Source: Candidatus Liptonbacteria bacterium (GTDB lineage Bacteria; Patescibacteriota; Minisyncoccia; UBA6257; 2-01-FULL-56-20). From it: 44,847 bases of DNA. The notes below the pieces were generated by a model. That model saw only the letters and a list, made by a program, of their open reading frames with translations, was not told the DNA's origin and did not search any database. Position numbers and translations under genes: made by a program. The stretch spans positions 1 through 44,847 of the forward strand of contig JACQBP010000045.1 of NCBI GenBank assembly GCA_016194445.1. The letters are read 5' to 3'. Position 1 is the first letter of the stretch. Each line of letters opens with the position of its first letter. Below, one piece after another: positions 6,027 through 12,886 of the stretch.

Positions 6027-6758
6027 ATGACCAATAAAATTATACTAGAAATCAGAGCCGGTGCTGGCGGCGACGAAGCCTCAATTTTTGCGGGCGACCT
6101 GGCCCGAATGTACCAGCGTTATGCCGGAAAACGCGGTTGGAATTTTCATATTTTAGACTCTAGTCAAAATAGTCTTGACGGCTATAAAAATCTCGTAGCC
6201 GAACTCTCGGGCGTTGGCGCGTACGATGAATTAAAACAAGAGTCCGGCGTCCACCGCGTCCAGCGTGTCCCCAAAACCGAAAAATCCGGCCGCGTCCACA
6301 CTTCGACTGCCTCCGTCGCCATTTTGCCCATCGTCGAAGCCAAAGAAGTCAATATAAAGGACAGCGACCTCGAAGTCACTTTCTCCCGCGCTGGTGGTCC
6401 CGGCGGCCAAAATGTGAACAAAGTGGAAACAGCCGTAAGAATTTTACACAAGCCCTCTGGTATCGTCGTCGCCTCCCGTGAAGAACGCTCCCAGCACGCC
6501 AATCGTGAAAAAGCCATGGAAGTTCTGCGAGCCAAGCTCTACGAAATAGAACAACAAAAAGTTTCCGGCGACATTGGCGCTTCCCGCCGCGAACAAATCG
6601 GCTCGGCTGATCGCTCCGAAAAAATCCGCACCTACAACTTTCCGGACGACCGCATCACTGATCACCGCATCGGCAAAAAATTTTCAAGAATTGAAGATAT
6701 TATGGACGGTAATATCGATCCCATAGTAAAAGCATTCCGGAAAACGCCACAGAGCTAG
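6027..6758 (+). CDS. prfA: Peptide chain release factor 1, short form lacking N-terminal domain
   Basis: [28 protein letters not shown] and [17 protein letters not shown] (GGQ) motifs; only 243 aa. Confidence 0.88.
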
Positions 6759-6770
6759 GAGGAAACACTT

Positions 6771-6840
6771 GCCCCGTACTAAACGAGAAATCTGAATCTA
6801 TTAATAAGCAGTTTAAATTTTTCTCGTTTTAGTATCGGGG
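6771..6840. repeat. Hairpin between the two prfA 3'-end copies
   Basis: CCCCGTACTAAACGAGAAA ... TTTTTCTCGTTTTAGTATCGGGG imperfect inverted repeat. Confidence 0.75.
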
Positions 6841-6845
6841 TGGAA

Positions 6846-6912
6846 CCCATTATCAAAGCTTTCAAAAAATCCCCCCAAACAACCCCCTCCTCCGTACAGG
6901 TTTACTATTAAG
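6846..6912 (+). pseudogene. Displaced second prfA 3'-end remnant
   Basis: GTG GAA CCC ATT ATC AAA GCT TTC AAA AAA TCC CCC CAA = VEPIIKAFKKSPQ, parallel to the intact gene's [13 protein letters not shown]. Confidence 0.6.
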
Positions 6913-6914
6913 AG

Positions 6915-6920
6915 TATAAT
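6915..6920 (+). promoter_or_regulatory. Candidate -10 element of ncRNA
   Basis: Perfect TATAAT just before the GGGCTAGCT...AGCTAGCC helix; no convincing -35. Confidence 0.5.
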
Positions 6921-6922
6921 AC

Positions 6923-7410
6923 GGGCTAGCTCGGTGAGAGAGTCAAGCGCTTGGCTCTCAAACCTTAGGTTTCAAGGATTAGCTAGCCAGCTATCAACCA
7001 GTAGAAAGGATGTTGCGGACAAGGGAGCCCTCCATCGGAACTGACCGTTTGGTCGCTTTGGTGGGACAAAAGAGTAGGCTCACGCGCGTAGCGCAAGTAC
7101 CGTACTGGAAGAAAGTCTGACCGCAAAGAGGAAGGGCTATACCAACGGAGACGGGGACCGGGTTATGTAAATTTTTTAAAAACATAATGCGGATTGCCAC
7201 CCCTAACCGAAGTGATGCTCGAAAACTCTGTAGCTGATCCAGAGGCTGGGCGGATAAGTTCGAGGGTTGTACTGTCCGTCGCTAACACACCCCGAAAGCC
7301 AGAATCTCGCTTCGGCAAGCGAGTAGGAGGCAAAGCCTTTAAAGAAGCCCGCGAACATAGCGCAACACCACCCCGCAGACTTGAGCCGTCTGCGGGGTGT
7401 TTCTTTTTTA
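6923..7410 (+). ncRNA. Candidate ~490-nt structured noncoding RNA of unknown class
   Basis: Non-coding interval rich in helices (GGCTAGCT/AGCTAGCC; GAGAGUCAA-GCGC-UUGGCUCUC; GACC-GUUU-GGUC; CTCGCTT-CGGC-AAGCGAG), preceded by TATAAT and ended by a strong intrinsic terminator. Confidence 0.6.
7369..7410 (+). terminator. Intrinsic terminator of the ncRNA
   Basis: CACCCCGCAGAC ttgagcc GTCTGCGGGGTG TTTCTTTTTT. Confidence 0.92.
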
Positions 7411-7453
7411 AAAATAATCTTTTTCAGGTAAAAAACCCGTCAGAGTTTTTTAA

Positions 7454-7948
7454 TTACTCCCTCAAAGTAAACTTCGTATACGCCGGCTGGTGATTCACTA
7501 ATTCTTCCGGCTTAAACCAAACGTTGATTTCGGCTTTCGCTTCTTCAGCTGAACCGGAAGCGTGAATCAAATTAAAAACGCCGATTCCTTTTCCATCCGC
7601 GTGCTTAAAAGAAACGTGGGCGTAATCGCCGCGGATCGTCCCCGGCGCGGCCGACTTCGGCTCCGTCGTCCCCACCATTTTCCGCGCAATTTCAACCATC
7701 TCAATTCCTTCTAAAACTATTGCCACAATCGGCCCGGAAGTGAGCATCTCAATCATAAGCTCTCGCACCTTCTCTCCACGCCGCTTAGCCAAATCATCCG
7801 TGTAGTGCAAACTCGCCGTATCCTTGGCCGAAGCTAAAAGCTTGAGGCCGATGAGCTTCGCCCCCACTCTTTCAAATCGGGTCACAATCTCCCCTATAAT
7901 CCCCCGCTCCAAAACGTCCGGTTTTAACAAAACTAATGTTCTTTCCAT
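7454..7948 (-). CDS. ndk: Nucleoside diphosphate kinase
   Basis: MERTLVLLKPDVLERGIIGEIVTRFE...GTIRGDYAHVSF...NLIHASGSAEEAKAEI. Confidence 0.93.
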   Translation of the reverse strand: MERTLVLLKPDVLERGIIGEIVTRFERVGAKLIGLKLLASAKDTASLHYTDDLAKRRGEKVRELMIEMLTSGPIVAIVLEGIEMVEIARKMVGTTEPKSAAPGTIRGDYAHVSFKHADGKGIGVFNLIHASGSAEEAKAEINVWFKPEELVNHQPAYTKFTLRE

Positions 7949-7986
7949 TTGCCTTAAATTCTAACTGAAAACAAAAAATATATCAA

Positions 7987-11955: not shown

Positions 11956-12301
11956 CATTTTATGGCAATTCATAAGCGGGATTCTGTCTCGCCCGTCATA
12001 GCTTTCGCGACGGCGGGATTAACGATCATTTATCTGGGCCTTTGATTACTCGCAGGCTCAAGCGGCACTTCCGAAAACAGCTTGCGCTGTTCGGACACGA
12101 CCTTGCACTCGATAAGGATTTAGCCGTTTCACCTCTGTCTTTTTATCCCTATAACAGAGTTAGACCAAACTAGCTTGGGATTGGATCTCCCTCGTCCTTT
12201 CGAACGAGAGCGTCACTGCTCGCACCTCTACGCTTACGCGCGACGGCTGTTAGCCGCTACCTTTTTATCCTGTTTACACAGGAGAGTGTCCCGACTTTCC
12301 T

Positions 12302-12320
12302 CCCCCCACCACTTTTCATG
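12302..12320. repeat. Arm of perfect 19-bp inverted repeat (P3 3' strand)
   Basis: CCCCCCACCACTTTTCATG; exact reverse complement at 12574..12592. Confidence 0.97.
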
Positions 12321-12576
12321 CCGACTCGAGACTACCTTTTATTCGCTTTACTAATTCTTTATAAGAATTTTTAAACTGCTTCAGCTTTCTTTCTCGAGTC
12401 AGGGCATCTAACTTAGATCGGTAGATTTCACAGTAGACAAGAACGAAAGGACCTCTGTGTTTCGTTGATTTAGTATCACCCGCATTATGCTCAGATAGCC
12501 GACGCTTCAAATCATTAGTGACACCAATATACAACCTACCGTCCTTTGTACTTTTCAAGACATAAACGCAATACAT
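12316..12576 (-). CDS. Small GIY-YIG nuclease-family protein (UPF0213/YhbQ-like), located in the P3 loop of rnpB
   Basis: MYCVYVLKSTKDGRLYIGVTNDLKRRLSEHNAG...LDALTRERKLKQFKNSYKELVKRI; intact GIY-YIG core. Confidence 0.9.
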   Translation of the reverse strand: MYCVYVLKSTKDGRLYIGVTNDLKRRLSEHNAGDTKSTKHRGPFVLVYCEIYRSKLDALTRERKLKQFKNSYKELVKRIKGSLESA

Positions 12577-12592
12577 GAAAAGTGGTGGGGGG
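12574..12592. repeat. Arm of perfect 19-bp inverted repeat (P3 5' strand)
   Basis: CATGAAAAGTGGTGGGGGG; exact reverse complement of 12302..12320. Confidence 0.97.
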
Positions 12593-12616
12593 CGATCGTC
12601 TGAATTACCAACCCCA

Positions 12617-12645
12617 ACTATACCCTATACCAACCAAAATAGCAA
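12617..12645 (-). promoter_or_regulatory. Candidate rnpB promoter
   Basis: Minus strand TTGCTA (12640..12645) - 17 nt - TATAGT (12617..12622); P1 5' strand GGTAATTC starts 7 nt downstream of -10. Confidence 0.75.
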
Positions 12646-12747
12646 TATGTGGTAATAACGTCTAAGAAAAAATTTATTTCCGAAACCATAAGCGAGAGGC
12701 GAGGTAGAAATCAGTTAGCGAGTAATTTTAATGACTCTTATGTAAAA

Positions 12748-12886
12748 GCAAACAAGATATTCCTTTGGCGCGGCTCGGAGGCCGAGCGGGCAGGGTGTCC
12801 CGCCTTGGCGGGACGAGCGAGGCCGGAGTGCCAGCGAAAGTTCTCGCTGGGAACTTGAGTGGTAGTCAAAGGAATATCTTGTTTGC
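12748..12886. repeat. Structured intergenic element, copy A
   Basis: Perfect 20-bp terminal inverted repeat GCAAACAAGATATTCCTTTG; interior near-identical to copy B. Confidence 0.9.

Follow-up and report, generated by a model that had tools for sequence, protein, structure and literature searches.

A candidate noncoding transcription unit, known from a single genome, between prfA and ndk of a Candidatus Liptonbacteria bacterium

What occupies the 695 nt between prfA and ndk on a contig of a Candidatus Liptonbacteria bacterium, an organism with a small genome (0.9 Mb in 48 contigs) from a family of small genomes? In the window, i.e., the whole 44.8-kb stretch of DNA analyzed here, prfA (peptide chain release factor 1; 6027-6758, plus strand) and the oppositely oriented ndk (nucleoside diphosphate kinase; 7454-7948, minus strand) were taken from the ORF list, with orthologs of prfA in 60 of 61 genomes and orthologs of ndk in relatives. 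The first-pass annotation had described positions 6923-7410 as an unidentified structured RNA. We assign a probability of about one half to the reading that this segment is a species-specific noncoding transcription unit of the plus strand, lying in a variable prfA-ndk slot, carrying a folded 5' domain and ending at a terminator. Direct observation covers the noncoding sequence, an RNA-like and strand-specific base composition, the terminator and the absence of the segment from relatives, while we infer that the locus is transcribed, that it folds compactly and that it may have a function.

The intrinsic terminator at 7369-7409 is the only part of the locus that lies clearly beyond chance. It reads CACCCCGCAGAC-TTGAGCC-GTCTGCGGGGTG-TTTCTTTTTT, in which a perfect 12-bp stem is followed by the T-rich tail TTTCTTTTTT. 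When the criterion was set to a perfect 10-bp stem with a T tail, no comparable element arose on either strand in 300 dinucleotide shuffles of 6400-7950, and the terminator was the sole instance in the 44.8-kb window, in agreement with the earlier description of it as strong. Since it is oriented toward plus strand transcripts, it does not serve ndk, which reads the opposite way.

Base composition is the chief argument in favor of an RNA gene, and it is suggestive. On the plus strand, 6923-7369 has a GC content of 0.52 with a G>C skew of +0.09 and an A>T skew of +0.19, and the resident RNase P RNA gene, rnpB (11957-12350, minus strand), has the same skew signs (GC 0.50, G>C skew +0.18, A>T skew +0.20). 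Among 8880 windows of 447 nt, taken at a step of 10 on both strands, not one attained the candidate's figures for all three measures. Under looser thresholds the candidate was the only plus strand region in all settings except one, which added a single 300-nt plus strand window (12581-12880), and the minus strand regions that passed were rnpB plus several protein genes; as these thresholds were chosen after the sequence had been seen, this evidence remains suggestive only. Elsewhere in the window, the ORF-poor segment 44133-44640 has an RNA-like composition on its minus strand and a possible small membrane-protein frame on its plus strand.

At the other end of the candidate, the 5' domain (6924-6988) comprises an exact 8-bp helix between GGCTAGCT (6924-6931) and AGCTAGCC (6981-6988) around a hairpin at 6933-6964, whose 9-bp stem pairs 6938-6946 with 6951-6959 in the minimum-energy fold. 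Positions 6923-6990 fold with an MFE of -27.8 kcal/mol, and 6921-6990 reached a z-score of -2.96, the best among six sub-regions tested, with 2 of 200 shuffles folding as well; folding of the 5' domain thus probably exceeds chance. The helix, which had been proposed as closing the domain, is indeed exact and is used by the isolated domain, but it is absent from the whole-length minimum-energy fold. A TATAAT hexamer is likewise present at 6915-6920, as pointed out before, yet its value as a possible -10 box is limited: the hexamer occurs 21 times in the window (9 on the plus and 12 on the minus strand), no acceptable -35 lies at the usual spacing, and the promoter scan did not report it. In addition, only 3 nt separate it from the closing helix, and a start 6-8 nt past TATAAT would leave the first pairs of the helix untranscribed, so that the promoter and the closing helix fit badly together.

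When the whole segment was folded with the terminator included, the full 490 nt gave a z-score of -2.9, whereas the transcript without the terminator ranged from -1.4 (equaled by 11 of 100 shuffles) to -1.6 (by 2 of 60). Positions 7000-7372 alone fold about as well as average, and the 380 nt outside the 5' domain and the terminator were no better than shuffled sequence, with z-scores of about -1 to +0.8. In the same test the resident rnpB reached only -2.0, and a modest z-score is therefore compatible with a real RNA. For a possible long-range pairing of GTTGCGGAC at 7012 with GTCCGTCGCTAAC at 7274, spanning 7012-7286 and suspected earlier, both segments are present, form a duplex of -12.9 kcal/mol and pair (7012-7020 with 7274-7286) in the MFE as well as the centroid fold, but the pairing does not exceed chance. 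A 7-bp hairpin, CTCGCTT-CGGC-AAGCGAG, was also seen at 7306-7323 in both the sequence and the MFE fold. Taken as a whole, the label "structured" for 6923-7410 is weakly supported: the terminator and the 5' domain speak for it, whereas the fold energy of the remainder is near chance, with rnpB only slightly better.

Homologs in related genomes, to which the first-pass annotation had looked for confirmation, did not turn up. Blastn-type searches found none in the two congeners, 35 further family members and the order (245 genomes), nor in samples of the class (387 genomes) and the phylum (382 genomes), and matches in relatives were only ~40 nt or shorter. The identical search with rnpB was positive in 34 of 38 family genomes, so the method has the sensitivity needed to recover an RNA that was inherited. 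A profile built from sequence only (R1) detected no homolog among the genomes of the order, its two weak matches lying inside gyrB and another long reading frame, and it had no match in the regions downstream of or around prfA in 29 relatives; a 5'-domain structural model (R2), run against the order, recovered nothing beyond the locus and a weak match antisense to it. Blastn against phage and plasmid sequences gave chance matches only. The word TGTCCGTCGCTAACAC occurs in 35 viral contigs that show no similarity to the RNA outside that word, most of them sharing one coding-like context, by eye the start of metK; other words were found in no viral contig or in one or two unrelated ones per word. 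Pattern scans of genome contigs found none with the first word and 42 scattered ones with the second, the best match being 27 nt. That all relatives searched lack it makes a conserved cellular RNA less likely.

In relatives, this interval carries other cargo. After prfA it holds other genes, often NUDIX hydrolases (Pfam-confirmed in G002 and G006, with similar-looking frames in several others), a 113-aa frame in G030 or a 73-aa frame in G001, and no copy of the RNA, although for G002 the stretch analyzed covered the prfA-ndk interval only in part, with ndk lying outside it. The slot downstream of prfA is thus variable among relatives, being filled, depending on the genus, by NUDIX hydrolases or by other small frames, which suggests that different cargo is exchanged there within the family. 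The 3' end of prfA itself differs as well: the in-frame tail (14 residues) is unlike that of both congeners, which end with MEPIIKAFKK followed by TP or NP. Farther on, at 6841-6911, there is a second prfA tail, EPIIKAFKKSPQTT, preceded by a palindromic repeat (6772-6840). An 87% identical copy of this repeat adjoins tRNA-Gly in the congener G002 (L073, ~1501-1573), where a tRNA-Gly-like fragment, situated upstream of an intact tRNA-Gly(CCC), is apparently split by it. Judging from these features, 6710-6911 seems to consist of a foreign-type prfA 3' end, the palindromic repeat and a displaced native-type tail, and possibly an insertion supplied a new prfA end in place of the native one, which was displaced. 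The RNA candidate begins just past the displaced tail.

These observations bear on the main rival to a noncoding transcription unit, namely that the segment is nonfunctional acquired DNA, left behind by a mobile element or by horizontal transfer, that would at most form a long prfA 3' UTR ending at the terminator. We consider this a tentative but distinct possibility, in line with the lack of any homolog in the whole order, the near-random fold energy, the variability of the interval in relatives and the signs of insertion in the adjoining prfA 3' end (second tail, palindrome and 87% congener copy). Against it stand the RNA-like, strand-specific composition that matches rnpB, the intact strong terminator and the well-folding 5' domain. 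Like long 3' UTRs with intrinsic terminators, the candidate lies on the prfA strand, is gene-free and ends at a terminator; unlike them, it has the composition of an RNA gene, and the two congeners carry no such extension past prfA.

A different alternative is that the locus belongs to a known large RNA family (a group I or group II intron, an RNase P paralog or an OLE/GOLLD/ROOL-like RNA) but has diverged so far that the covariance models miss it. No Rfam family out of 4227 matched at gathering score in the whole window by cmscan. As rnpB itself scores below the gathering score, the 601 nt at 6850-7450 were rescanned up to E=10, where the sole matches were two to DUF805b at 10-11 bits, attributable to chance. 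No match to RF00010 (RNase P class A), to a group I or group II intron family or, assuming that the release includes them, to OLE, GOLLD or ROOL was obtained in this lax scan, and ARAGORN found neither tmRNA nor tRNA in the 44.8-kb window. At the level of cmscan, by gathering score or at E≤10, the candidate therefore falls in none of these families, and the earlier exclusion of tmRNA, RNase P, SRP RNA and group II domain V holds. The real genes of the first two lie elsewhere: the sole RF00010 match of the genome is rnpB, 4.5 kb from the candidate, and the tmRNA is located on another contig (G000:C24, 124 bits). This rnpB is divergent, scoring 67.8 bits where RF00010 has a gathering score of 100, and is missed by a standard Rfam scan; the 3' end of a GIY-YIG endonuclease-like ORF (12316-12576, minus strand) overlaps its 5' end by ~35 nt.

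Divergence below the cut-off hence does occur in this genome, and two blocks in the candidate, GAAAGTC near 7113 and CAGAATCTCGCTT at 7300-7312, resemble conserved regions of RNase P by eye. Nevertheless, such an overlooked family member appears improbable, because the same kind of lax scan that detected rnpB with an E-value of 2e-20 returned no ribozyme, intron or large-RNA match, and CAGAATCTCGCTT forms a local hairpin rather than an RNase P core helix. The candidate is near the resident rnpB in length, composition and strand bias; an RNase P paralog was rejected given the cmscan result and the real rnpB nearby. A tRNA-like 5' domain, considered for its 8-bp stem and 65-nt span, was discarded likewise, as the arms are unlike those of tRNA and ARAGORN reported none. 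tmRNA is a free-standing stable RNA of a length roughly like that of the candidate. With OLE, GOLLD and ROOL, large ornate bacterial RNAs studied by cryo-EM (PMC12286853), the candidate shares its size, its noncoding nature and the lack of an adjacent protein gene that it obviously serves. Those RNAs are recurrent, with many homologs, whereas the candidate has none in the collections searched and no covariance-model match; they display ornate folds, while the candidate is known here from sequence alone; and membership among them is marked by a homo-oligomeric RNA-only complex. A literature search aimed at structured RNAs from such bacteria yielded no pertinent work.

A small or decayed protein gene is very improbable and ranks below the divergent-family alternative, since, although there are ORFs as long as 99 codons, the 99-codon ORF extends through and beyond the terminator, the longest stop-free run is ordinary (33% of composition-matched shuffles contain one equally long) and a six-frame Pfam search with stops masked gave no match, in accordance with the noncoding nature proposed for the interval.

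We thus return to a species-specific noncoding transcription unit, for which the unique terminator, the composition, the lack of a Pfam match, a 5' domain that folds better than 198 of 200 shuffles and the different cargo in relatives speak, and against which the lack of homologs, the near-chance whole-length fold energy without the terminator and the weak promoter have to be set. Such a unit would be found in this species alone, its acquisition being most likely recent. Transcription would start near 6926 or read through from prfA, and the product would most likely be an RNA of ~440-480 nt with a folded 5' domain, which might act in trans or be a selfish or phage-derived RNA. It is unlikely that the locus is the first representative to be seen of a new class of large structured RNAs, native to tiny uncultured bacteria or to phages of theirs, that reached the slot by horizontal spread. 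The segment 6923-7410 is a fair lead, an unconfirmed candidate from a single genome. If the locus is transcribed and folded, it would represent a large orphan RNA, and a genome of 0.9 Mb would hardly retain half a kilobase of noncoding DNA to no purpose.
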